Of a DNA stretch of 64,000 nucleotides, positions 5,898-52,972 are shown one piece after another. The stretch is taken from assembly GCF_900116425.1 (NCBI RefSeq), contig NZ_FPAS01000003.1, positions 62,001 through 126,000 on the forward strand, in the 5' to 3' direction. Both the position numbers and the translations under genes were made by a program. Every line of letters begins with the position of its first letter. Positions within the stretch are counted from its first letter, which is position 1. The notes below the pieces were generated by a model. It was not told the DNA's origin. It saw only the letters and a program-made list of their open reading frames with translations, and did no database searches. The DNA is from Lishizhenia tianjinensis (GTDB lineage: Bacteria; Bacteroidota; Bacteroidia; Flavobacteriales_D; Crocinitomicaceae).

Positions 5898-6926
5898 TTA
5901 AATTTCCTTGTTTAATTTCAACGCACAGATTACGTTCCACAATGCACGTGCACCTACGTTTGCATCCCAAGCATCATCTCCCACCTCGCATAAATCAAAA
6001 CCTATGATTTCTTTGTTAGAACGTGCTAAGGTATACAACAAGTAGTTGATTTGTTCTAAATCGAAACCACCTGGAACTGGAGTACCCGTATTTGGACATA
6101 AAGAAGGCTTTAAACCATCTATATCGTACGAAATGTAGACTTTGTTTGGTAAACTAGCAATGATATCCTCCACCTGCTCTTTCCACGTCTTTCCTCCAAA
6201 GTTTTCTTCTTTCAATTCCCAATCGTAGAAACAACGAACGCGTTTAGGATTTGCTTCTATGATATCCACCTCTGATTGAGCGATATCACGAATTCCTACT
6301 TGCACCAACTTTTCAACGTTTTCTAATTTGAGCGCATTAAACATGATACTTGCGTGCGATTGTTCGAAATTCTCGTAAGCATCTCTCAAATCGGCATGGG
6401 CATCTATTTGAAGAATACCAAACTTTGTTTGTTCGGCCAATGCTTCAATTAATGCAAGAGGTGTTGAATGTTCTCCACCTATTACACCTACCAATTTATT
6501 TTGTTTTAAATCGGCTGCAATTTTGGCTTTGTATTCTTCTTTCAACTTGGTTTGCACCGCGTTCATTTCTTGCACCAAGGTTGTAAACTTCTCACTTTCT
6601 TCCAACTTCCCACCTTCTTCTAAATAGTCGATGTAAGCTGTTGTTTGCGAAGAAAGATCTTCGTTTACCGCCTCCCAACGCTCATCTATAGGTTCCCAAT
6701 ACACTTTTGTATTGTACGCCTTCTTCACGTAAGGATTGTAAAAGTCTAACTGTGTTGATTCGCGTAAGATAGCAGCTGGTCCACCAGCCGTACCTCTACC
6801 ATAGCTTGCGGTCGCATCCCATGGAAAAGGATACAAAACTATGTCCGCCTGAACATGCGTAACGGGAAATCCGAAGATATTCCCGTTAGCAATTCCTACC
6901 CCATTTGGATCAAAATCTTTCTTCAT
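5898..6926 (-). CDS. speB: Agmatinase-like ureohydrolase
   Basis: The 342-residue protein belongs to the arginase/agmatinase fold and has the full dimanganese set: GGEHS, DAHADLRD and SYDIDGLKPS, with the GTPVPGG loop after it. Enzymes of this family hydrolyse a guanidino group to urea. Agmatine (giving putrescine) is the likely substrate because the next gene makes spermidine from putrescine; formimidoylglutamate or arginine remain possible because substrate cannot be read from the core motifs. It starts one base after the stop of the AdoMet decarboxylase/spermidine synthase fusion, so the two form an operon. Confidence 0.85.
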   Translation of the reverse strand: MKKDFDPNGVGIANGNIFGFPVTHVQADIVLYPFPWDATASYGRGTAGGPAAILRESTQLDFYNPYVKKAYNTKVYWEPIDERWEAVNEDLSSQTTAYIDYLEEGGKLEESEKFTTLVQEMNAVQTKLKEEYKAKIAADLKQNKLVGVIGGEHSTPLALIEALAEQTKFGILQIDAHADLRDAYENFEQSHASIMFNALKLENVEKLVQVGIRDIAQSEVDIIEANPKRVRCFYDWELKEENFGGKTWKEQVEDIIASLPNKVYISYDIDGLKPSLCPNTGTPVPGGFDLEQINYLLYTLARSNKEIIGFDLCEVGDDAWDANVGARALWNVICALKLNKEI

Positions 6927-6927
6927 C

Positions 6928-8205
6928 TTATTTCAAAAGATCCTTCACAAAATTAGGCAATGCAAAACTTGCTGTGTGCAGTTCTGTATTGTAGTATCTT
7001 AAACCTTTTGCATCTACAAAAGCATCAGCTGCTGCTTGGTCTGCAAAAGACTTCATGTTTATATTTCCTTTGATTCCGTATTGGAACGACCACATACCCG
7101 TTGGGTAGGTTGGAACGTAGAATAAAGAAACTGGAGCTTTGTCTTCTCCGAATAATCCTCTCAAGGTTGCGTTCAATTCTGCGAAGGCATTTTCATTGAA
7201 TTTAGGAGATTCTCCCTGTGCAATTAAAATTCCGTTTTCATTCAACGCGTTGTAACAGTTTTGGTAAAACTCTACAGAGAACAATCCTTCAGCCGGTCCA
7301 ACAGGATCTGACCCGTCAACCACTAATAAATCGTAAGCTCCTGCAGCTGCTTGTTTCACGTACTCAATTCCGTCACCCACGATCAATTCTAAACGTGGAT
7401 CATCAAATGCTGCTGCGATAGAAGGCAAGTGCTTTTTACACGCTTCAATTACTTCTCCATCTATCTCAACCATTGTTACCTTCTCCACACCTTCGTGCTT
7501 CAAAATTTCTCTAACGGTACCACCGTCTCCTCCACCAATAACCAAGACGTTCTTCACGTTTCCGTGAGCCATCATAGCTGGGTGAGAAATCATTTCGTGG
7601 TAGTGGAACTCATCGTTCTCTGTTGTCATGAACATATCGTCCAAGGTCAACAACTTACCATATTTTGGTGATTCCAAAATTCTCACGCGTTGGAAAGGCG
7701 ATTGAACATCGTGGAAAACTTCACCGGTGTACTTCAAAGAAAGGGCTTGGTTTTCATCTTTATCTGTAAACCATACGTTTCTTGTGTACATTCCTGGGTT
7801 TACCCACTCATCTGCCTTCTGACGCATCGTAGAAATATCGAAATCGTTTCTTGTAAGTAAGTTTACAGAACCACGTTTCATTTCTAACGCCGAGTAATTT
7901 TTGGCTTGAAAACAGTCTTTTAGGAAATCAAAAGAAATCCATGCGTCCATTTCTCCACACGTGAACAAATCAACCGCTGCATAACCATATTCTGGCCAGG
8001 TATGTATGGCCAGGTGACTTTCTTGAATCACCACCACCCCACTTACTCCGTATGGATTAAAGTGGTGGAAAGTTGAGTTAATAACAGTAGCTCCAGCCTT
8101 TTGTGCTGCACCTACCATGTCTCTTTCAATAGCAGAAACGTCGTTCATAATCTCTGGTGAACAACCCATGAATTCTACTAGAATGTGATTTCCTAATGCA
8201 CTCAT
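6928..8205 (-). CDS. AdoMet decarboxylase proenzyme fused to spermidine synthase
   Basis: One 425-residue chain carries two polyamine enzymes. Residues 1-120 are a bacterial-type S-adenosylmethionine decarboxylase with Glu62-Ser63 (the self-cleavage site that makes the pyruvoyl cofactor), His68 and Cys83, exactly the numbering of the well-studied Thermotoga enzyme. Residues about 140-425 are an aminopropyltransferase of the SpeE fold, with the nucleotide-binding GGGDGG motif, the MVEID acidic turn and the [14 protein letters not shown] substrate loop. Together they would turn AdoMet plus putrescine into spermidine. The gene is the first of an operon with agmatinase and faces away from the DUF350/DUF4178 gene run. 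Confidence 0.92.
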
Positions 8206-8346
8206 TTAAATAAAAAAATTTGGGCGTAAAAGTATGCCAATTTCAAATAGTTTTCTAAAACTAGGAATATTTTTTTCAATGGAACTTACATATTGTCTTT
8301 TAATTCTTAAATTCAAGCCAATAAAGAAAAACTCAAACAACTCTAT

Positions 8347-8496
8347 ATGTCTAGAAATCAAAAGTTAATCACTCTTATCATATTAATTTTTATTGCTATT
8401 GCAGTTCTTAGTTGGTTCTTCAGAAGATGGGGATTTGTAGGTGCTGGAATAGGTGGATTTATTCTTGGATACTTTTTAGGAAGAAAAAACAGCTAA
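8347..8496 (+). CDS. Small membrane protein, 49 residues
   Basis: A short frame from ATG 8347 encodes MSRNQKLITLIILIFIAIAV followed by a Trp/Arg turn and a second Gly-rich hydrophobic stretch (GFVGAGIGGFILGYFLG), ending in RKNS. This is a clean two-helix or helix-plus-glycine-zipper membrane protein. It ends six bases before the next gene, reads in the same direction and is probably the first gene of the DUF4178/DUF350 run. I know no named family for it. Confidence 0.6.
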   Translation: MSRNQKLITLIILIFIAIAVLSWFFRRWGFVGAGIGGFILGYFLGRKNS

Positions 8497-8502
8497 TTTT
8501 TT

Positions 8503-9306
8503 ATGCAAAGAGGACAAAAACCAAATGCACGTCGCAGGAAGTTAAATTACCAAAGATCCATCTTGCAAGAAGAGCTTGCGCTTTACAATAGGCAAAAAGA
8601 AATACTACCTGTACTCGGGGTTTTACTTCTTTTTGGTGTACTCTTTCTTTTCCTGAACTTCAAATTTTCAGTAAAGGGGAATTCTTTTGATGCGCATAGA
8701 ATAGAACAAGGGTTTGAATTTACTATAGAAGATCCTGGAGTTCATCAAATAGACATTCTCAATCATCCGAATATTATTTCAGACAACCAAGCAACTCATT
8801 TAAAGACGGAAGTTTTTATTAAAAAGGAAGGTAAAAAACTCTACCATTATTACCTGACCAACAAAAGTGTTTCCGGTAGCCAATTGCAACGGTTGAACTA
8901 TTATTTCCGAGAAGCTGGAAACTACCAACTTACATTTCGACACAGTTTAATTACAACTACCCAAAGCATTAAGGAACCTGCAGAGGTTAAGAAAGTAACG
9001 CTTACTCCAAGACAAGGAAACGCAAAGCTTATTACTTGGGGAATGCGCTTATTTCTCTTGGGAGTAATTATCATACTCTTATTGAAAGATTATTTTGGTC
9101 CAGTTAAAAACTACCAAAAAATCATACAAAACAAGGAATACAATTTAAAAAACAAAAGCCTCTATATAGCCCTATCTATAGCCGTTTTATGGTTAGTTTT
9201 GGGCTATGCACTAGCGAGTAGCGGCTATGGTTTTGCCGGGTACAACAATGACATGCATGCTCCGGCAAAAAGTGTTCAAATCGATAATAATTATTACATC
9301 AACTAA
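8503..9306 (+). CDS. Membrane protein with periplasmic beta-rich domain, unknown family
   Basis: The 267-residue protein has a basic cytoplasmic N-terminus (residues 1-33, partly coiled), a membrane helix (about 34-53), a soluble beta-rich stretch (about 55-170) and two further helices (about 178-195 and 216-237). No named domain is recognised. It lies between a small membrane protein and a DUF4178 protein with spacers of six and one bases, so it belongs to the same transcription unit. Its layout, an external domain anchored by three helices, would suit a scaffold or sensor of an envelope complex, but that is inference. Confidence 0.65.
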   Translation: MQRGQKPNARRRKLNYQRSILQEELALYNRQKEILPVLGVLLLFGVLFLFLNFKFSVKGNSFDAHRIEQGFEFTIEDPGVHQIDILNHPNIISDNQATHLKTEVFIKKEGKKLYHYYLTNKSVSGSQLQRLNYYFREAGNYQLTFRHSLITTTQSIKEPAEVKKVTLTPRQGNAKLITWGMRLFLLGVIIILLLKDYFGPVKNYQKIIQNKEYNLKNKSLYIALSIAVLWLVLGYALASSGYGFAGYNNDMHAPAKSVQIDNNYYIN

Positions 9307-9307
9307 T

Positions 9308-9850
9308 ATGTTTGAAAAAATTATAAACTTCTTCAAAGGAAGCAGCAAAGACCCTCAAGTGGATTTTAAAGTGAAGGACTTAAAAGTAGGTTACATTTTA
9401 GAGTACAACCTTACTACTTGGATGGTTGAAAAAGAATACCACTATAACTGGGGAGAAGGATATGCTTCGAAAGAATGGTTAATCATGAATGGGAATGAAA
9501 AAGCCCTACTTTTTTACGATGATTCTGAAGGAGAAGAAATTTCAATCTCTAAGGAAATTAACCTTTTGCAAGATTTAAACAGCGTTCGTGAAGAAATCAT
9601 TACCCAGGATATACCGCGCAGACAATTTGCTTACGAGGGAAAAACGTGGTCTTTGACTTCTGAAAACCCTTGTTTGTATAGTGAAGTAGGAAAAGGTGGA
9701 CAAATCGAAATGGTCGTTTGGGTATTTGAGGATACCAACAAAGATGAATTTATTTCTTTCTCAAGAACGGGAGAAAACAATGTAACAGGATACAAAGGTT
9801 CTTACTTAAAAGAATTTGAAATAGGTAACATTTTACCGAGTCAGCAATAA
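9308..9850 (+). CDS. DUF4178 domain protein
   Basis: The 180-residue protein begins MFEKIINFFKG, an amphipathic membrane-touching helix, and continues with a beta-rich DUF4178-like region (about 20-170; features GYILEYN, WMVEKEYHYNWG, EWLIMNG). A longer frame back to 9227 overlaps the previous gene; ATG 9308, one base after its stop, is preferred. DUF4178 genes are known to sit beside DUF350 and aminopropyltransferase genes in many bacteria, as here. The biochemical role is unknown. The family call rests on pattern and context and should be tested with a profile search. Confidence 0.7.
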   Translation: MFEKIINFFKGSSKDPQVDFKVKDLKVGYILEYNLTTWMVEKEYHYNWGEGYASKEWLIMNGNEKALLFYDDSEGEEISISKEINLLQDLNSVREEIITQDIPRRQFAYEGKTWSLTSENPCLYSEVGKGGQIEMVVWVFEDTNKDEFISFSRTGENNVTGYKGSYLKEFEIGNILPSQQ

Positions 9851-9852
9851 GA

Positions 9853-10533
9853 ATGAAATATTTACAAATAACACTATTACTCTTCGTACTTGCCGCCTGT
9901 GGAGGGAAAGCATGGGAAGCCAATATGGTAGACCAGTTGCTGGAAAAGTACAAAGACAAACCCAATACAGAAATACTTTTGAGCGACATGCAAGAGACTT
10001 CTGGAGGGAAATTTATACACGCTTACAAAGTTATAGGTACAGACAACAAGGGAGATTTTCACTTAATTACTACGGTTCAAGACAACAATGTTACCGAAGG
10101 TTTTTATGCCTTGCATTACGACAACTTGGGAATGTCCATTGGTAGAATAGATAGTTTAGGAAACAAAAGTACCATAGTTGCACCTCCCGGTTTCAACACA
10201 GTAATCGGTAATCCTAAATACGGTGAGTTCAGAGAAGAGAATGGTCATAGAGTATGGCATTTTTTCTCAACTTACCTCTTTTACCGCACCTTGTTTGGAA
10301 TGGGAAATCGTATGATTTACTACAATCATTACAACGATTATTATCACCATTACAGATACAACAGACCTTATTACGGTTCTGGTTCAGGTTCTTCTCCTTC
10401 TTGGGGAACAAAATCAACGGCAACCAAACAAACGCATAAAAACTTTTACCAACGCTCTGTCAACCGTTCTGGGTCTTGGCAAAGATCATACAGCAGCTCT
10501 AGCTCACGAGGTGGCGGAGGATTTGGAAAATAA
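9853..10533 (+). CDS. Lipoprotein with Ser/Gly-rich tail, DUF350-associated
   Basis: The 226-residue product has a lipoprotein signal peptide with the lipobox LAAC (Cys16). A globular part (about 20-150) is followed by a region very rich in Tyr, His and Asn (about 152-178) and a low-complexity tail ending SSSSSRGGGGFGK. Ser/Gly tails ending this way recur in secreted proteins encoded next to DUF350 genes, such as the enterobacterial YjfM type, but sequence similarity elsewhere is not evident to me. It starts two bases after the DUF4178 stop and lies eleven bases before the DUF350 gene. Confidence 0.65.
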   Translation: MKYLQITLLLFVLAACGGKAWEANMVDQLLEKYKDKPNTEILLSDMQETSGGKFIHAYKVIGTDNKGDFHLITTVQDNNVTEGFYALHYDNLGMSIGRIDSLGNKSTIVAPPGFNTVIGNPKYGEFREENGHRVWHFFSTYLFYRTLFGMGNRMIYYNHYNDYYHHYRYNRPYYGSGSGSSPSWGTKSTATKQTHKNFYQRSVNRSGSWQRSYSSSSSRGGGGFGK

Positions 10534-10544
10534 AACGAACACAC

Positions 10545-11408
10545 ATGAAATTAGCGATATCCATAGAAACTTATACCTATTACCCACTGCTCTATTTAGC
10601 AGTTTGTATACTACTGATCATTCTTTCAAGATTTGTTTATAAAATTCTACACCCTGCCATAGATTTAGATCATGAAATGGTGGAGAAAGACAATTTTGCC
10701 TTCAATTTATCACAAGTCGGTTACTACATCGGTATAGTAATAGCCATGGGTGGAATCATGACCAGTGAGGCACATCCTGACTTACTCAAAGATATACTCT
10801 ACACTTTTGTGTATGGAATTGCAGCCATTCTATTAATGAACATTAGTAGCTTTTTAAACGACAAGTTATTGCTGTTCAAATTCAACATAAAAAAGGAATT
10901 GGTAGAAGATCAAAATTCAGGAATGGGAGCTTTAGAAGCTGGGAGCTACATTGCAACAGGACTTATCCTCTACGGTGCACTTCAACTGGAAGCTGATTAC
11001 CCTATGGCCGCATTAGGATATTGGTTTATCGCAGAGCTTGCGCTCATTGTAACTGGACATTTTTACACCTGGATGGTTCCCTATAATGTGCATAAAGAAA
11101 TAGAAGAAGATAATATAGCCGTAGGTGTTTCTTTTGGAGGAATGATAGTAGCCCTAGGTGTTTTAATTGAACATGGAATTGCCTTAGAACACAGCACATG
11201 GCTCGATGGATTAAGCTATATGGGACTCAACGTAATTGCTGGAATAATTTTACTTCCACTGTTGCGCTTTGTTACCGATAAGGTTCTCTTACCTAAACGC
11301 AAATTAGTAGATGAAATAGTACACCAAGAAGAACCTAATATTGGAGCCGCTTTGGTGGAAGCATTCTCTTATGTTGCAGGTGCCATTATCTTTACTTGGT
11401 GTTTCTAA
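10545..11408 (+). CDS. Double DUF350 (YjfL-type) integral membrane protein
   Basis: The 287-residue protein is two tandem copies of a four-helix DUF350 unit. Each copy has a hydrophobic helix pair, a conserved acidic turn (LDHEMVEKDNFAFNLSQVGY in the first, YNVHKEIEEDNIAVGVSFGG in the second) and a second helix pair closed by a short KxLLP- or KLLLFK-like segment. The repeated (V/E)EKDN-(F/I)A motif shows the internal duplication directly. DUF350 proteins occur beside aminopropyltransferase and DUF4178 genes and in phage-shock-type envelope stress neighbourhoods; the molecular function is not known. The stop overlaps the start of the GNAT gene by one base. Confidence 0.85.
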   Translation: MKLAISIETYTYYPLLYLAVCILLIILSRFVYKILHPAIDLDHEMVEKDNFAFNLSQVGYYIGIVIAMGGIMTSEAHPDLLKDILYTFVYGIAAILLMNISSFLNDKLLLFKFNIKKELVEDQNSGMGALEAGSYIATGLILYGALQLEADYPMAALGYWFIAELALIVTGHFYTWMVPYNVHKEIEEDNIAVGVSFGGMIVALGVLIEHGIALEHSTWLDGLSYMGLNVIAGIILLPLLRFVTDKVLLPKRKLVDEIVHQEEPNIGAALVEAFSYVAGAIIFTWCF

Positions 11409-11830
11409 TGAAATTGAACTATACGCAATCGAAAACAGAAATGATGGCAGCTTACAATTGTTTGCTGCACTTATATCCTAGTCTAACATTGGAAGATTAT
11501 TCCCAGATGTTAGATAATATGCTTCCCAATAACTACGGTCAGGTTCTGGCTTACAACACAGAAAATGAAATCATAGGTGTTTGTGGCATTTGGTTAGGTA
11601 CAAAACTGTGGTGTGGAAAGTATTTAGAGTTAGACAATGTCGTCATTGCGCCGGAATACAGATCATCTGGCTTAGGAAAACAAATTACTGAATTTACAGA
11701 AAAAATAGCCCGAGAAAAGGAATGTAAGATTATGGTATTAGATGCTTATACGAGTAACTTTAAAGCACATAAATTCTATTACAACCAAGGTTTTGGTCCG
11801 AAAGGATTTCATTTTATAAAAGATCTTTAA
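11408..11830 (+). CDS. GNAT family N-acetyltransferase
   Basis: The 140-residue protein has the GNAT fold, with motif A VVIAPEYRSSGLGKQI binding acetyl-CoA and a C-terminal YYNQGF motif. ATG 11408 overlaps the DUF350 stop codon as TAATG, implying translational coupling, so this start is preferred over the upstream in-frame codons at 11396. The substrate cannot be read from sequence; being coupled to a polyamine-linked locus makes a polyamine or small amine a reasonable guess, with protein or amino-acid acetylation as alternatives. Confidence 0.8.
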   Translation: MKLNYTQSKTEMMAAYNCLLHLYPSLTLEDYSQMLDNMLPNNYGQVLAYNTENEIIGVCGIWLGTKLWCGKYLELDNVVIAPEYRSSGLGKQITEFTEKIAREKECKIMVLDAYTSNFKAHKFYYNQGFGPKGFHFIKDL

Positions 11831-11832
11831 AC

Positions 11833-11866
11833 AAAAAAGGGAGTGCAATGCACTCCCTTTTTTTAT
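11833..11866. terminator. Bidirectional hairpin terminator
   Basis: The inverted repeat AAAGGGAGTGC / GCACTCCCTTT around a three-base loop (AAT), with an A run before and a T run after, ends both the GNAT operon and the converging proline dehydrogenase gene. Confidence 0.9.
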
Positions 11867-11875
11867 CTCCTCTTT

Positions 11876-13066
11876 TTACTTTCTCTTGGTTGGCTTAGAA
11901 GAACTCTTTCTCCTTTGCTTTTCCTTGATCAATAAAGATAATTCTCTTCCCGTTTGACCCGCCACAGAAGTGTTTTCTTGAGCTCTCCTCATTAAATAAG
12001 GAATTACCTCTTTAACCGGACCATAAGGCACGTATTTCGCAACGTTATACCCTTCGTAGCTCAAGTTGTATGAGATGTGATCTGACATACCTAACAACTG
12101 CGCAAAGTAAATACGTCTGTCGTCTTTGTCTAAGTTATTTTTCTCCAACAATTCCGCTAAATAAGCCGAACTTTCCTCGTTGTGTGTTCCTGCACAAAGT
12201 TTACAATAATCAATGTGTTGTACCACATATTCCAAGGCTAAATCGTAGTCTCTATCTGTTGCTGCCTTATCCGGTTGTATAGGAGAAGGGTACCCATGTT
12301 CTTCTGCACGTGCTCTTTCTTTCTCCATGTAAGCACCACGCACCAATTTCACACCGTAGTTGTAACCTTGTTCTTTGGCTTCCTTAATACTGTCCTTTAA
12401 AAATTGCAACCTATCATGTCTGTACATTTGAACCGTATTGAAAACGATGGATTGCTCGCGGTTGTATTTGCGCATCATCATGGCACAAATTCTATCGATA
12501 ATATCTTGTATCCACGACTCTTCTGCGTCAATGAAAACAGGAACACCGAATTCATGCGCCTTGGCACAAATGGTATCTATTCTTTCAATTACTAAATCCA
12601 AGGCTTTTCTATCGGCCTCAGAAATTTCAGCGTTTTCATCATTCACGCGCTTCAATAAGTTGAAATTGGCCAACCCTGTTACCTTGAACACGGCAAAAGG
12701 AATCGCTTTTTCACCATTTGCACGAATAATAGTGGAAATTAATTCATTTACTGTATCTGTAAAATCTTCTTTGTCCAACATCCCCTCTACCGAATAATCC
12801 AGTATGGTTCCAACGTTGAACTTGTTCAATTCCTCTATGGTACTATCACAATCTAAAATGGTCTCTCCTCCACAAAATTGTCTGAAGATGGTGCGTTTAA
12901 CAATACCTTTAATCGGCAAATTCATTTTCATTGCCGTATTGAGTACTCCAGAGCCCATATTTACTAAGCTTGGATAACCCATGAGTTTGAAAAGACGATA
13001 CGCTCGATTCAAATCTCTATTGCTCTTAGAAGCAAATGCTATTTCCGTATTTTCGAATGATACCAT
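11876..13066 (-). CDS. Proline dehydrogenase
   Basis: The 396-residue protein is the stand-alone flavin-dependent proline dehydrogenase of the PutA/ProDH barrel. The flavin- and proline-contacting segments YGVKLVRGAYMEKER and the later YVPYGPVKEVIPYLMRRAQEN are intact. It oxidises proline to pyrroline-5-carboxylate and passes electrons to the quinone pool. A C-terminal basic tail (KQRRKSSSKPTKRK) extends past the barrel. It stands alone behind its own promoter, and its biosynthetic counterpart (proCBA) lies 27 kb away in the same window. Confidence 0.93.
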   Translation of the reverse strand: MVSFENTEIAFASKSNRDLNRAYRLFKLMGYPSLVNMGSGVLNTAMKMNLPIKGIVKRTIFRQFCGGETILDCDSTIEELNKFNVGTILDYSVEGMLDKEDFTDTVNELISTIIRANGEKAIPFAVFKVTGLANFNLLKRVNDENAEISEADRKALDLVIERIDTICAKAHEFGVPVFIDAEESWIQDIIDRICAMMMRKYNREQSIVFNTVQMYRHDRLQFLKDSIKEAKEQGYNYGVKLVRGAYMEKERARAEEHGYPSPIQPDKAATDRDYDLALEYVVQHIDYCKLCAGTHNEESSAYLAELLEKNNLDKDDRRIYFAQLLGMSDHISYNLSYEGYNVAKYVPYGPVKEVIPYLMRRAQENTSVAGQTGRELSLLIKEKQRRKSSSKPTKRK

Positions 13067-40308: not shown

Positions 40309-41115
40309 ATGAAAATTTTAATGATAGGGGCCGGGAATATGGGGCTTACCTATGCAGAAGGAATGGCCACATCGCCATTCAAAAACCGAAGGAACATTCA
40401 AATTTATGATGTTTCTGAAGATGTACTCGTTAAACTAGATGAAGTACCTCACTTCGATACTTTTAGAAATATCGAAGATTGTTTGCCAGAGGCAGACATT
40501 GTTTTTTTAGCTGTAAAACCTTACCACTGTGAGGATTTGTACGCTAAAATAAAGCACTTGGTGAATGAACAGCAAATCTTTGTTTCGCTCATGGCCGGTG
40601 TAACTATAGAATCCATCCAAGAAGGATTGGGTGTGAAAAAAGTAGTAAGAACTATGCCCAACCTACCCGCTCAGGTAGGAAAAGGAGTTACCTCTTACAC
40701 TGAATCACCTGAAGTTTCTAAAGTAGAATTGATAATGGTGAGAAACTTACTGGATACTACTGGAGAATCTATACGCGTTAAAAATGAAAACTTTATTGAT
40801 GCCTCAACAGGTATCTCTGGATCTGGTCCGGCTTATGTTTTCTATTTCATGCACTCTATGATGGAAGCCGCCTTAAAAATGGGCTTCTCTCCAAACGATT
40901 CTAAAATACTCGTATCCAACACTTTTGAAGGAGCCGTAGAGCTTTTCAACCACGAAAACGTGAGTCCACAAACACTAATGGACAGAGTTGCCTCTAAAGG
41001 AGGTACCACTCGCGCCGCCTTAGATTCTTTAGAAGACAATAACGTTAACGAATTAATTAAGAAAGCCGCCTATGCAGCCTTTGATAGAGCTGTAGAACTT
41101 GGCGAACAAAGTTAA
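40309..41115 (+). CDS. proC: Pyrroline-5-carboxylate reductase
   Basis: The 268-residue protein starts with the Rossmann motif MKILMIGAGNMGLTYAEG and has VVRTMPNLPAQVGKG, the substrate-site helix TGISGSGPAYVFYFMHSM and the C-terminal signature KGGTTRAALDSL. It performs the last step of proline synthesis, reducing P5C with NAD(P)H. The frame reaches upstream to a TTG at 40285, but ATG 40309 gives the natural N-terminus. It leads a proC-proB-proA operon with spacers of 18 and 27 bases. Confidence 0.95.
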   Translation: MKILMIGAGNMGLTYAEGMATSPFKNRRNIQIYDVSEDVLVKLDEVPHFDTFRNIEDCLPEADIVFLAVKPYHCEDLYAKIKHLVNEQQIFVSLMAGVTIESIQEGLGVKKVVRTMPNLPAQVGKGVTSYTESPEVSKVELIMVRNLLDTTGESIRVKNENFIDASTGISGSGPAYVFYFMHSMMEAALKMGFSPNDSKILVSNTFEGAVELFNHENVSPQTLMDRVASKGGTTRAALDSLEDNNVNELIKKAAYAAFDRAVELGEQS

Positions 41116-41133
41116 TTCACTCAAACAAAAAAT

Positions 41134-41919
41134 ATGAACAAGAAAAAAGTGGTCATCAAAGTAGGAACCAATGTGATGACCAATAGAGACAACAGAATTG
41201 TAGGCCCAATATTAAAAAACTTAGTCAGACAAATCGCCTACTTATACGAAAGAGATATTATTACTGTACTTGTTTCCTCCGGATCTACTATAGCCGGTAA
41301 AGAAGTATTGGGAGAATGTTCTATACAAGATCCTTCCATACGTCGACAAGTATTTTCTGCGGTAGGACAACCGCGAATGATGCGTCATTATTACAGCATG
41401 TTCCATGATTATGGTATGCGCTGTGCACAGGTATTGGCCACCAAAAGAGATTTTGATCCAGGCCTACATAGAGAAAACATGATCAATTGTTACGAAGCCT
41501 TATTGCATGAAGGAATTATCCCTATTGCCAATGAAGACGACGCGGTATCCTTGTCTATGTCTATGTTTACCGATAACGATGAATTAGCCAGTTTAGTAGC
41601 CGAACTTATCGATGCTGACATGCTCATCATCCTTACCGATATAGATGGATTATACACCGGGCACCCCGACGATGAAGACACCCGTAAACTCAATACGGTA
41701 AGTGTAGATCAAAACGTTGAAAAATACGTTCAAGCTTCAGAAAAAGGAGAAGGCGAAGGACGTGGTGGAATGAAGTCCAAACTACGCATTGCCAAAGGTA
41801 CAGCCAAGAAAAACATTCCTACTTACATAGCCAACGGTAAGTACGATAACATCATTATTGACATCTTGGAAGGGAAAGAAGTTGGTACCAAATTCGTGAA
41901 CAACGAGACAGAAAAATAA
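41134..41919 (+). CDS. proB: Glutamate 5-kinase, kinase domain only
   Basis: The 261-residue amino acid kinase has KVVIKVGTNVM at the N-terminus, SSGSTIAGKEVLG, IANEDDAVSLSM, the ILTDIDGLYTGHP motif and the GRGGMKSKLRIA segment. It phosphorylates the side chain of glutamate. The C-terminal PUA domain present in the 360-residue E. coli enzyme is absent, as is normal in several bacterial groups. It sits between proC and proA. Confidence 0.94.
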   Translation: MNKKKVVIKVGTNVMTNRDNRIVGPILKNLVRQIAYLYERDIITVLVSSGSTIAGKEVLGECSIQDPSIRRQVFSAVGQPRMMRHYYSMFHDYGMRCAQVLATKRDFDPGLHRENMINCYEALLHEGIIPIANEDDAVSLSMSMFTDNDELASLVAELIDADMLIILTDIDGLYTGHPDDEDTRKLNTVSVDQNVEKYVQASEKGEGEGRGGMKSKLRIAKGTAKKNIPTYIANGKYDNIIIDILEGKEVGTKFVNNETEK

Positions 41920-41946
41920 CATACAATATTTACAAGACTTACATAC

Positions 41947-43146
41947 ATGGAATTACTCAATACAAACAAAAAGAACGACGTACTAGATGCTATGATGCGC
42001 ATTATAGCAGAGAACAAACAAGAGATAATAAAAGAAAACCAAAAAGATTTAGACGCATTTACCAAAGATGACCAAGCTTTGTATGACCGACTCGTGGTGA
42101 ACGAAGCCAAGGTAGACGGTATGATACAAGCCATCAAAGAGGTGCGTCAACAAGAAGACCCTGTTCAACAAGTGATATCTAATAGAACTTTGGAAACAGG
42201 ATTGAACATTCAGAACAAAACCGCTCCCTTTGGTACCATCATGATTATTTACGAATCTAGACCCGATGTTACCATAGAAGCAGCTGTTTTGGCCTTTAAA
42301 GCCAACAACAAAATTTTATTAAAAGGAGGAAAAGAAGCCAAGTTCTCTAACCTCATTTTAGAAAAATGCTGGCACCAAGCCTTAAAAGAAAATGGCTTAA
42401 GCAAAGATTGGATTAAACTCTTACACATGAACAGAGCAGAAACCCAAGAATTTTTGCGCAATCCTACGGAGAAATTAGATTTAATTGTTCCCCGCGGAGG
42501 TGAACGCTTAATTGCTTTTGTAAAGGAACATGCACAATGTGCTGTTTTAATCAGTGGTCGAGGAAACAACTTCCTATACATTACTCCAAAGGCAGATTGG
42601 GAAAAAACCATCAAAGTTGTCATTAACGCGAAAACAGATAAAATATCAGGTTGTAATGCCTTAGACAAGGTGTTAATTGATAAAAACATTGCTGATTTTG
42701 AAGCGAAGGTAAAAGACCTTAACAGCATCTTAAATGATCATCAGGTTGAGGTTGTTGTAGATCCTAGCTTGAAACAAACTTTACCCAACAATACCGTGGT
42801 TGAAGATCAGAATACGTGGTACGAAGAATTTTTGGCCATGAAAATAATGTTGAGTGTGGTAGAAAATGAAGATGAAGCCATAGCTACAATCAACAAATAT
42901 TCTGGAGGACATTCAGCTGCCATATTAACTGAAGATGCTAAAGAGGCTGAACTATTTATGGAACAAGTAGATTCTGCAGCAGTTTACCATAACGCCTCAA
43001 CCCGCTTTACGGATGGTGGACAAATGGGGGTTGGAGCTGAATTAGCCATTTCCACAGACAAACTTCACCACAGAGGTCCTTTAGGATTAAAGCAATTGGT
43101 AACCAATAAATACTATGTATTTGGAGATGGACACATTCGAGTGTAA
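41947..43146 (+). CDS. proA: Gamma-glutamyl phosphate reductase
   Basis: The 399-residue protein is an aldehyde-dehydrogenase-fold enzyme with the ProA signature IMIIYESRPDVTIEAA, LKGGKEAKFSN, the catalytic cysteine in KISGCNALDKVLI and the closing segment GAELAISTDKLHHRGP. It reduces gamma-glutamyl phosphate to the semialdehyde, which cyclises to P5C for ProC. Length is close to the usual 410-420. It is the last gene of the operon and is followed by a terminator. Confidence 0.95.
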   Translation: MELLNTNKKNDVLDAMMRIIAENKQEIIKENQKDLDAFTKDDQALYDRLVVNEAKVDGMIQAIKEVRQQEDPVQQVISNRTLETGLNIQNKTAPFGTIMIIYESRPDVTIEAAVLAFKANNKILLKGGKEAKFSNLILEKCWHQALKENGLSKDWIKLLHMNRAETQEFLRNPTEKLDLIVPRGGERLIAFVKEHAQCAVLISGRGNNFLYITPKADWEKTIKVVINAKTDKISGCNALDKVLIDKNIADFEAKVKDLNSILNDHQVEVVVDPSLKQTLPNNTVVEDQNTWYEEFLAMKIMLSVVENEDEAIATINKYSGGHSAAILTEDAKEAELFMEQVDSAAVYHNASTRFTDGGQMGVGAELAISTDKLHHRGPLGLKQLVTNKYYVFGDGHIRV

Positions 43147-51445: not shown

Positions 51446-51913
51446 ATGAAAAACAAAGCAACACTCTTATTAAGCTTATTACTCATAAGTCCCCTTAATT
51501 TTAGTCAGGAAAGAGAACAAGAAATAATCGTAAAAGACTATTACCCCAATGCCGTTTACGGGTCCCTTGGCATTGGCGGACTCTACTTTACAGCAACCGG
51601 TTTTTACGAAAGAACCTTGAGCTATAATGGAAGGTTAAGAACCTTTGCAAAAGTGGGTGTTGGTGGTTATGCCCTTTGGGGGATAGGTGGTGTCTATGGT
51701 ATGGGGCATTTGGGATTGTTAACAGGTGCGAATAACAATCACCTGGAATTAAGTGCCGGTTACAACCGCTTTTTCACTGGAGACCTTCAAGGAGACTATC
51801 CTTTGTCAGGAACAATGGGCTATAGGTTTCAAAAACCAGATGGGTTATTCATATTTAGAACAGGTGTTTCTTTTCCGGAGGCTGTGTACTTAGGTTTAGG
51901 CTTTAGTTTTTAA
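51446..51913 (+). CDS. Tandem outer-membrane-type protein, copy 1
   Basis: The 155-residue secreted protein has a signal peptide (to about residue 20) and a Gly/Tyr-rich beta-strand body. It is clearly paralogous to the two genes after it, sharing the closing block GYRFQKP...FRTGVSFPE and the length. The terminal aromatic residue (FSF) suits an outer-membrane barrel of eight strands. No function is known. It has a promoter region of its own, 200 bases from the divergent prpE gene. Confidence 0.65.
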   Translation: MKNKATLLLSLLLISPLNFSQEREQEIIVKDYYPNAVYGSLGIGGLYFTATGFYERTLSYNGRLRTFAKVGVGGYALWGIGGVYGMGHLGLLTGANNNHLELSAGYNRFFTGDLQGDYPLSGTMGYRFQKPDGLFIFRTGVSFPEAVYLGLGFSF

Positions 51914-51993
51914 GCAAAGCTAACCATCCGGTAATCTTCCTAGAAATTCTAAACATCCCCTGATTGTGTTTTTCATGTATAATAACATTAGCT

Positions 51994-52461
51994 ATGAAAA
52001 ATTTTATTTCACTTCTACTTAGCCTTTGCTTTTTACCCCTTCAAGGAAATACACAAATTCCCGAAAAGCAAGCCATTGCCCAAGAATACTATTCCAATGC
52101 CTTGTATGGATCTTTGGGATATGGAGGAAAGTACGCTACCGCCAACTCCTATTTTGAACACTGCTTAACCGCGAATGATAAAATCAAAACTTTGGGTAAA
52201 ATAGGATATGGAGGATATTACACCGTACATGGAACAGGGAGCTATTTATTGGGACACGTAGGACTTTTAACGGGGGCAAAAAATCACCATTTAGAAGCTA
52301 GCATAGGTGCAAATTTCTTTTTTGGGGATGCACTTATTGAAGAGATCCCACTGGGCGCAAACCTGGGCTACAGGTTTCAAAAACCACAGGGTATATTTTT
52401 ACTTAGAACGGGAATTTCTTATCCAGAAGGCGTCTATGTTGGAATTGGAACCTGCTTTTAG
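51994..52461 (+). CDS. Tandem outer-membrane-type protein, copy 2
   Basis: From ATG 51994 (MKNFISLLLSLCFLPLQGN) the product is 155 residues; the upstream TTG at 51964 would add a poor N-terminus. It is the second member of the paralogue trio, with LYGSLGYGGKYATA, HVGLLTGAKNHHLE and GYRFQKPQGIFLLRTGISYP aligned to copies 1 and 3. The gene is probably an ancient tandem duplicate: the layout is kept but many positions have changed. Confidence 0.65.
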   Translation: MKNFISLLLSLCFLPLQGNTQIPEKQAIAQEYYSNALYGSLGYGGKYATANSYFEHCLTANDKIKTLGKIGYGGYYTVHGTGSYLLGHVGLLTGAKNHHLEASIGANFFFGDALIEEIPLGANLGYRFQKPQGIFLLRTGISYPEGVYVGIGTCF

Positions 52462-52507
52462 GAGGAAGGAACAAAATGTTGTAAATTATAGAGAAATTAC
52501 TTGAAGC

Positions 52508-52972
52508 ATGAAGACTATAGTTTGTGTTATACTCTCGGTATTTTATACTTTTTGCTTTTCACAAAGCTCTATACAAACACGCAGAGACTCTATTTTTCAA
52601 CCCCGTGCTTTGTATGCTAATTTAAGTGCAGGTGTCCGCGTTATCTCAAGCATGACAGCATACTATGAATCCACGTTAAGGACAAGAGGAAACTCCAGAA
52701 CCTATCTTAAGGCTGGCTTGGGTTATTACGCCGTATTTGGGAGAGGAGGAATGCATGTAATCGGCAACCTTGGGTGGTACGGGGGTGGTGTAAAGCACAA
52801 AATAGAATGTGGTGGCGGACTTGATTATTTCATCCTGGGAGATCTACAAGGTGCGATTCCTCTTTCAGCATCGCTAGGATATCGTTTTCAAAAACCTCAA
52901 AAACGCTTTCTATTCAGGACTGGATTTTCTTATCCCGAAGGAGTTTATATTGGGGCCGGGTATAGATTTTAG
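52508..52972 (+). CDS. Tandem outer-membrane-type protein, copy 3
   Basis: This 154-residue paralogue is the most diverged of the three. It keeps LYANLSAG, the GGGLDYFILGDLQGAIPLS stretch and the closing block GYRFQKPQKRFLFRTGFSYP. The signal peptide ends near CFSQ. Function is unknown; the spacing of 46 bases to copy 2 suggests a shared transcript. Confidence 0.65.
   Translation: MKTIVCVILSVFYTFCFSQSSIQTRRDSIFQPRALYANLSAGVRVISSMTAYYESTLRTRGNSRTYLKAGLGYYAVFGRGGMHVIGNLGWYGGGVKHKIECGGGLDYFILGDLQGAIPLSASLGYRFQKPQKRFLFRTGFSYPEGVYIGAGYRF

Follow-up and report, generated by a model that had tools for sequence, protein, structure and literature searches.

The window analysed here is a 64,000-nucleotide stretch of the Lishizhenia tianjinensis genome (contig NZ_FPAS01000003.1, positions 62,001 to 126,000), which was found to contain a tight run of membrane-protein genes (8347–11830) beside two genes of polyamine-synthesis type. 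By homology and gene order, the run is the DUF4178–lipoprotein–DUF350 core of an envelope module linked to PspA, the remaining parts of which lie elsewhere in the genome. To the content given in an earlier note on this DNA are added a PspA–CesT pair and a membrane aminopropyltransferase elsewhere in the genome, and an invariant lysine at the C-terminus of the lipoprotein, this lysine being the new feature reported here. It is tentatively proposed, at slightly less than an even chance, that the product of the module is a membrane protein carrying a polyamine tag. The C-terminal lysine of the lipoprotein would be aminopropylated by SpmTM, the name used here for a spermine synthase joined to a seven-transmembrane (7TM) domain, and the tail would report the membrane state to PspA or stabilise it. 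Below, G-numbers label genomes and L-numbers loci, G000 being the L. tianjinensis genome itself.

The conserved core and its dispersed partners

The published operon, an envelope-stress gene set (PMC11237479, 2024, the one paper in the literature searched that names both DUF350 and DUF4178), comprises (i) a CesT/Tir–PspA dyad, (ii) a 7TM-fused spermine synthase, (iii) an eight-transmembrane YjfL/DUF350 protein, (iv) a lipoprotein with a Ctha_1186 domain, and (v) a DUF4178 protein. A doubled DUF350, a DUF4178 protein and a lipoprotein are encoded together in the run, which is the combination that marks the second group described in PMC11237479, the lipoprotein having been placed through the lipoproteins of such operons rather than through Ctha_1186 itself. 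It matched the lipoproteins of such operons at five loci of a phylum sample with E-values of 2e-11 to 1e-29 in single-sequence searches. The reading of the locus as a polyamine-linked envelope module, put forward in the earlier note, is supported. The suggestion that the tailed lipoprotein is an undescribed part is not supported, since it groups with the lipoproteins of such operons.

A scan with a DUF350 alignment, from which the best 80 of 279 loci were retained (the 80 loci), gave CesT–PspA–DUF4178–lipoprotein–DUF350–SpmTM as the commonest gene order, to which SpeD and a K-channel-like gene are often added. Matches within these loci, many of them on cut contigs, amounted to 76 lipoproteins, 67 DUF4178 proteins, 59 PspA proteins and 81 SpmTM proteins. 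Judged by equal length, some contigs are duplicates (L152/L153 of L039/L040, L260 of L069, and L279 and L280 of L064 and L071).

Neither the CesT/Tir–PspA dyad nor the 7TM-spermine synthase is encoded at the run. A single PspA match was found in the genome, next to CesT on contig C2 (G000:C2:1012643-1013329). The single SpmTM, of 516 residues with seven hydrophobic segments, is encoded on contig C5 (L147, 5980–7530), apart from its partners. The PspA–CesT pair is followed (L146, 3678–7741) by genes for 219 and 726 residues which look YuaF/flotillin-like by eye; the 726-residue protein had no Pfam match. In the two nearest loci, L039 and L040 (G491 and G492), SpmTM likewise lies on another contig. 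The run and SpmTM are kept together in other genomes of the family (e.g., L148, L151, and L155), and L151 also retains CesT–PspA just upstream. In trees, G000, G491 and G492 were grouped with modest support (0.78 for DUF350 and 0.81 for SpmTM, the latter trio including an L068 row that was disregarded for its branch length of 4.6) inside a well-supported group with unsplit family genomes (0.996 and 0.998, respectively), and both proteins of G000 sit beside their Crocinitomicaceae counterparts. That the separated parts act as one system would be argued from their co-occurrence at the level of the genome.

The absence of PspA, CesT and SpmTM from the locus would also be expected if the run were merely what is left of a PspA operon in decay, functionless by itself. 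However, the core frames are open and their motifs conserved, the run and SpmTM are also separate in G491 and G492, and SpmTM, PspA and AdoMet (S-adenosylmethionine) decarboxylase persist elsewhere in G000, and this explanation is regarded as very improbable.

SpmTM was called from a Spermine_synth match at E ≤ 1e-30 together with a profile of our own; G492, G539 and G550 are cut by contig ends, and matches with E > 1e-30 (G312, G357, and others) were left out of the counts. SpeD–SpeE fusions, which match Spermine_synth at about 1e-59 to 1e-64, were separated by the presence of AdoMet_dc in the same frame. The lipoprotein is present in 10 of 240 genomes of the family Crocinitomicaceae. Within a set of 38 family genomes, hand-picked from earlier listings rather than drawn at random, SpmTM was found in all 10 lipoprotein-bearing genomes, also when unlinked, vs. 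one of 28 others (Fisher p 2e-8). The lone exception, G366, has a sister-type operon (L218) with a Lys-ended tail of its own. In a phylum draw of 296 genomes, all 12 of those matched by the DUF4178 search had full-length SpmTM, vs. 10 of the 284 others. The DUF4178 search was incomplete, as L322, a locus of one of these ten genomes, passes the Pfam model at 4e-15. In a further 16 genomes, SpmTM was present in nine of the 12 that were DUF4178-positive, absent in two and unclear in one, and absent in all four that were negative. Three of these nine (G713, G817, and G916) have a DUF4178 operon that lacks SpmTM and encode SpmTM elsewhere.

The C-terminal lysine and the carriers of sister operons

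Among 26 aligned lipoproteins, the lipid-bearing Cys16 and the final Gly225–Lys226 are among 16 invariant columns. All of the 96 distinct tails (counted as distinct strings of the last 60 residues) end in GK, most commonly as GGFGK (61), although these are not 96 independent events because the tails are homologous. A C-terminal lysine is found in 142 of 987 other open reading frames (ORFs) of at least 150 residues at the same loci and, by family, in none of 81 DUF350, two of 81 SpmTM and 18 of 67 DUF4178 proteins. The structure model of the lipoprotein has a pLDDT (predicted local distance difference test) score of 88, falling below 50 at residues 209–224; it gave no Foldseek match at E 0.001, and VIA-align returned a best Z of only 3.0 (root-mean-square deviation 3.8, 74 aligned residues), with SSB rows among the matches. 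Frames of 429–443 residues in L256 (5298–6587), L257 (5080–6411), and L260 (816–2147) match the lipoprotein profile and retain the GGFGK end; they are probably DUF4178–lipoprotein fusions or frames taking in upstream sequence.

The independent evidence is that the lysine recurs in carriers without visible homology. Examination of 27 SpmTM loci without the lipoprotein identified a Lys-ended carrier in 24, a Gly-Gly-ended carrier in two (L329 and L330) and none in L289. The 24 are small exported or membrane proteins of 45–92 residues or, in two cases (L024 and L218), the DUF4178 C-terminus, and they end most often in YHK, HHK, or NHK. Carriers of the unlinked operons L276, L283, and L284 end in GGGFGSGK or GGGPGSGK, so that 27 of 27 unrelated carriers found outside the Gly-Gly pair end in Lys. 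Ends other than HK are RGK (L263), GGK (L274), FGK (L019), and SGK (the three unlinked operons). The carriers of L274, L271, and L019 were found only on re-examination (L274 frame by frame), that of L271 being frame-broken; where two small ORFs overlap (L261, L262, and L323), the more hydrophobic or abutting one was counted. As a test set, those 10 genomes of the phylum draw that have SpmTM but were not flagged by the DUF4178 search were taken before their neighbourhoods were viewed. A small carrier was present in eight, and all eight end in HK, although they cover four genera (g6, g8, g17, and g117), two of which (g6 and g8) had already been sampled; the rest are L329 and L330.

At L329 and L330, the carrier is an SYGG-ended membrane protein; its gene adjoins one for a GSP_synth ATP-grasp enzyme (3e-81 and 1e-75) and what looks by eye like a short SpeD frame, and SpmTM is divergent from this operon. 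These loci (L329, 3532–5625; L330, 3120–5242), where the membrane-protein tail reads GFGSGKSTRSYGG (or GYGSGRSTRSYGG), hold both kinds of polyamine-attaching enzyme. In Escherichia coli, YgiB and YjfM, the neighbours of YgiC and YjfC, likewise have a GG end, and RGGFG or RGGYG occurs in their tails. Thus carriers beside a GSP_synth-type enzyme end in Gly-Gly in four of four cases (YgiB, YjfM, L329, and L330), this side being limited to four proteins. Many of the genomes compared are metagenome-assembled with cut contigs. YgiC and YjfC are reportedly peptide-spermidine ligases, going by the title of Pederick 2023, a sentence citing it and RefSeq product names. An ATP-grasp ligase requires a carboxylate and an aminopropyltransferase an amine; the pairing of Gly-Gly ends with the former and Lys ends with the latter fits this chemistry.

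The proposed modification and its alternatives

In the proposed reaction, the SpeD domain of the SpeD–SpeE fusion that neighbours the run would provide decarboxylated AdoMet; it is the sole AdoMet_dc match in G000, and the fusion appears to be the only visible source of this substrate for SpmTM there. SpmTM, encoded on contig C5, would use this substrate to aminopropylate the lipoprotein at the epsilon-amine of its invariant last residue, a lysine. Because lysine carries an aminobutyl side chain, the product would be a spermidine skeleton on a protein. Anionic lipid, lipopolysaccharide and the acidic DUF350 motifs are possible binding partners of this cationic, flexible tail, which would report the membrane state to PspA or stabilise it. 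A comparison with spermidine synthases of solved structure aligned SpmTM at 8e-34, and the motifs GxGDG, DExxYHE, and DxPDP, the expected catalytic ones, are invariant in seven of seven aligned sequences.

Several observations weigh against the lysine as acceptor, in addition to the limits given above for the lipoprotein tails, the test set and the Gly-Gly carriers. DUF4178 occurs without SpmTM in G682 and G840, with G914 unclear, and L289 (G861), which has DUF350–SpmTM, yielded no carrier on inspection. At L329 and L330, SpmTM stands next to a Gly-Gly carrier. Hydropathy gives seven transmembrane segments in five of seven SpmTM sequences and six in two, and loop charges favour a cytoplasmic N-terminus; the catalytic domain would therefore lie outside, which suggests an extracytoplasmic location, where decarboxylated AdoMet is not known to occur. 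More charge follows the transmembrane segment in three of four small carriers examined, which suggests that their C-terminus is cytoplasmic, on the side opposite to the predicted catalytic domain. The lysine could also serve binding or sorting instead, and SpmTM passes the NCBIfam model for polyamine aminopropyltransferase (NF002956, 532.8 vs. 472 bits).

This last score is also what would be expected if the aminopropyl acceptor of SpmTM is a membrane lipid or free polyamine, with DUF350, the lipoprotein and DUF4178 sensing or handling the product and the C-terminal lysine acting only as a binding or sorting feature. The large transmembrane domain of SpmTM could bind lipid, and PMC11237479 proposes, in general terms, polyamine monitoring or "aminopropylation of other substrates." However, such a role leaves unexplained the Lys ends of unrelated carriers and the Gly-Gly ends beside an ATP-grasp ligase, and it is considered rather unlikely. 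The earlier note had offered transport, sensing or attachment of polyamines; attachment is judged the best of the three, as in the aminopropylation of the lipoprotein proposed here, and the other two are retained as a rival that is weighed below with the neighbouring genes.

More tentatively still, a new class of modification may be envisaged, in which membrane aminopropyltransferases turn the C-terminal lysine of dedicated carriers (a lipoprotein or a small transmembrane protein) into aminopropyl-lysine, in parallel to ATP-grasp systems that add spermidine to Gly-Gly, the window being a split instance fed by SpeD–SpeE. A literature search, limited in extent so that prior proposals are possible, found aminopropyl-lysine in no paper and, among the papers listed, nothing judged relevant besides PMC11237479; the word "lysine" occurs zero times in the main text of PMC11237479 (word search). 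The DUF350/DUF4178/7TM-spermine-synthase operons have no assigned reaction in those parts of the literature that were examined. Should the lysine of the carriers prove to be the substrate, a defined pathway of modification could be assigned to these operons and an acceptor to the membrane "spermidine synthases," and the link between PspA systems and polyamines would turn into chemistry, open to proof or disproof by one mass spectrum.

Layout, neighbouring genes and comparison with known systems

All eight ORFs of 5898–11830 were confirmed, in agreement with the gene content first noted (Table 1).

Table 1. Features of the locus, in window coordinates.
Feature	Position	Strand	Basis
Agmatinase-family ureohydrolase (SpeB-like), housekeeping neighbour	5898..6926	-	Pfam Arginase 9.5e-46; NCBIfam agmatinase 3.6e-42, below cut-off
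AdoMet decarboxylase–aminopropyltransferase fusion (SpeD–SpeE), 425 residues	6928..8205	-	AdoMet_dc 7.7e-41 and Spermine_synth 7e-62 in one frame
49-residue protein with one transmembrane segment, opens the run	8347..8496	+	ORF; one match (L267)
267-residue protein with three transmembrane segments, recurrent module part	8503..9306	+	Homologues adjoin lipoprotein genes in relatives
DUF4178 protein	9308..9850	+	Pfam 3.3e-11; alignment
Lipoprotein, lipobox Cys16, disordered Ser/Arg/Gly tail, end GGGGFGK	9853..10533	+	Alignments; structure model
Codons for lipoprotein C-terminal GGGFGK, proposed acceptor tail	10513..10530	+	96/96 distinct family tails end GK
Duplicated DUF350 (YjfL-type) membrane protein	10545..11408	+	Pfam 6.8e-54, two stretches; alignment
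GNAT acetyltransferase	11408..11830	+	Pfam 1.9e-15; 1-nucleotide overlap with DUF350 stop
Terminator-like hairpin at end of run	11833..11863	+	-20.1 kcal/mol, z -8.1

The intergenic gaps of the run are 6, 1, 2, and 11 nucleotides. With these short gaps, the single-nucleotide overlap and the hairpin at its end, the run looks like a single unit, and GNAT is probably on the same transcript as DUF350. The hairpin has 14 bp and a U run after the GNAT stop, and none of 200 shuffles was equally stable; it was absent from the output of a consensus terminator scan. Start sites of two genes were chosen from alignment and spacing and are likely at 9308 for DUF4178 (ORF list: 9227) and 11408 for GNAT (ORF list: 11396). 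The genes for the 49-residue protein, the 267-residue protein and the lipoprotein had no Pfam family above cut-off. By eye, the window also holds a proline-dehydrogenase-like gene adjoining the run (11876–13066), a proline-synthesis-like trio (40309–43146), and a tandem of three similar-looking secreted proteins of 154–155 residues (51446–52972).

Recurrence of the partner genes in related neighbourhoods, the check suggested in the earlier note, was found for the 267-residue protein and the lipoprotein, hardly at all for the 49-residue protein and not for GNAT. The 267-residue protein has three hydrophobic segments by hydropathy and no Pfam or NCBIfam family; its AlphaFold model (mean pLDDT 49.6) is too low in confidence for use in a fold search, and the loop between its first two segments is modelled as beta-rich, also with low confidence. 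A three-sequence profile found homologues directly upstream of DUF4178 in nine of the 10 lipoprotein-bearing family genomes, the contig of the tenth (L150) ending inside DUF4178. Others lie between SpeD and SpmTM in L265, L267, and L268 (E 2e-10 to 8e-16). Among the 80 loci, homologues occur only in L039 and L040, and the protein is therefore, by its distribution, a recurrent part of a regional variant of the module and not of the module in general. Single-sequence searches had found it in two of 296 phylum genomes (G000 and one at E 2.6e-4) and convincingly in G000 alone among 150 genomes of the order, a rarity which was rejected as misleading in view of the profile result. The distant relatives (L265, 3224–4090; L267, 6011–6817; L268, 3239–4042) end in YFGK, and the Crocinitomicaceae ones in YLG, YIG, or YIN. 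A 428-residue DUF4178-type membrane protein in an operon with the third carrier type (L283, 6206–7492) is a weak match to the 267-residue profile (5.8e-7).

For the 49-residue protein, no match was found at E 10 in the 80 loci, and a single one, of 48 residues, was found in L267 (E 4.7e-4), in the slot between PspA and DUF4178; L268 and L151 have analogues by position only. Thus, of the two unnamed membrane proteins thought to be module parts, the larger can be kept, while a place for the smaller is possible and weakly supported. GNAT, also thought to belong, was rejected as a module part, having no match at E 10 in the 80 loci; the GNAT-like gene that L039 and L040 have (by eye), third in line downstream after DUF350, does not match it.

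The SpeB–SpeDE pair runs divergent from the membrane-gene run. The agmatinase-family protein scores 144.9 bits vs. an NCBI equivalog cut-off of 174.3, and "agmatinase-family ureohydrolase" is therefore the safe name; in SpeD–SpeE, both domains share one open frame and the protein is a fusion. The pair is kept in five of seven SpeDE loci of relatives (L221, L222, L223, L226, and L227), with SpeDE lacking SpeB in L224 and L225. L223, which has no module, shows surroundings like those of the window (by eye, S41-protease-like, NlpC/P60-like, and 178-residue genes), and G429 has the pair in similar S41-protease-like and NlpC/P60-like surroundings (by eye) with no lipoprotein match. An AdoMet_dc match is present in 23 of 28 module-negative family genomes. 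Across the 38 family genomes searched, the fusion is found among lipoprotein-bearing genomes only in G000, G491, and G492; a short SpeD occurs in six of the other seven, and none was detected in G479 (67% complete). The pair, which had been counted into the module, was rejected as a part of it on the evidence of G429 and of the 23 module-negative genomes, and its adjacency to the run looks incidental, since it occurs in relatives without the module. These findings also bear on transport or sensing, in which DUF350 and the small membrane proteins would move or sense polyamines coming from the adjacent SpeB and SpeD–SpeE. The acidic motifs of DUF350 are invariant in the alignment and sister operons commonly include an ion-channel gene, which would suit such a role. 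However, the pair and the run lie on separate contigs in the two closest relatives that have the module (L221 and L222 vs. L152 and L153) and the pair also occurs without the module, and the idea is thought improbable.

Compared with the CesT/PspA operon (PMC11237479), the run has homologous DUF4178, lipoprotein and doubled DUF350 genes in the order usual for related loci, but PspA–CesT and the 7TM-spermine synthase are on other contigs, and the run includes the 267- and 49-residue membrane proteins and GNAT. The SpeD–SpeE protein resembles fusions of Candidatus Pelagibacter, active in E. coli (PMC11107197), in having an N-terminal AdoMet decarboxylase joined to an aminopropyltransferase; those belong to another phylum, and the activities of the window's protein are predicted from its domains. 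The yjfIJKLM–yjfC and ygiBC genes of E. coli share with the system described here DUF350, a tailed protein (DUF1190) and PspA (in yjf), a peptide-polyamine enzyme and the RGGFG/RGGYG tail motif, but they use an ATP-grasp ligase and a Gly-Gly end, in contrast to an aminopropyltransferase and a Lys end. A GSP_synth ATP-grasp match was absent from ten window proteins around the run, the rest of the genome not having been searched for PF03738, and the end of the run's lipoprotein, GGGGFGK, falls outside the Gly-Gly carriers as we delimit them from four proteins. Deoxyhypusine and hypusine of eIF5A are polyamine-derived moieties on a lysine side chain, as is proposed here for the lipoprotein. Unlike the present case, they are made by deoxyhypusine synthase with NAD (nicotinamide adenine dinucleotide), which places an aminobutyl group from spermidine on an internal lysine of a cytosolic factor.

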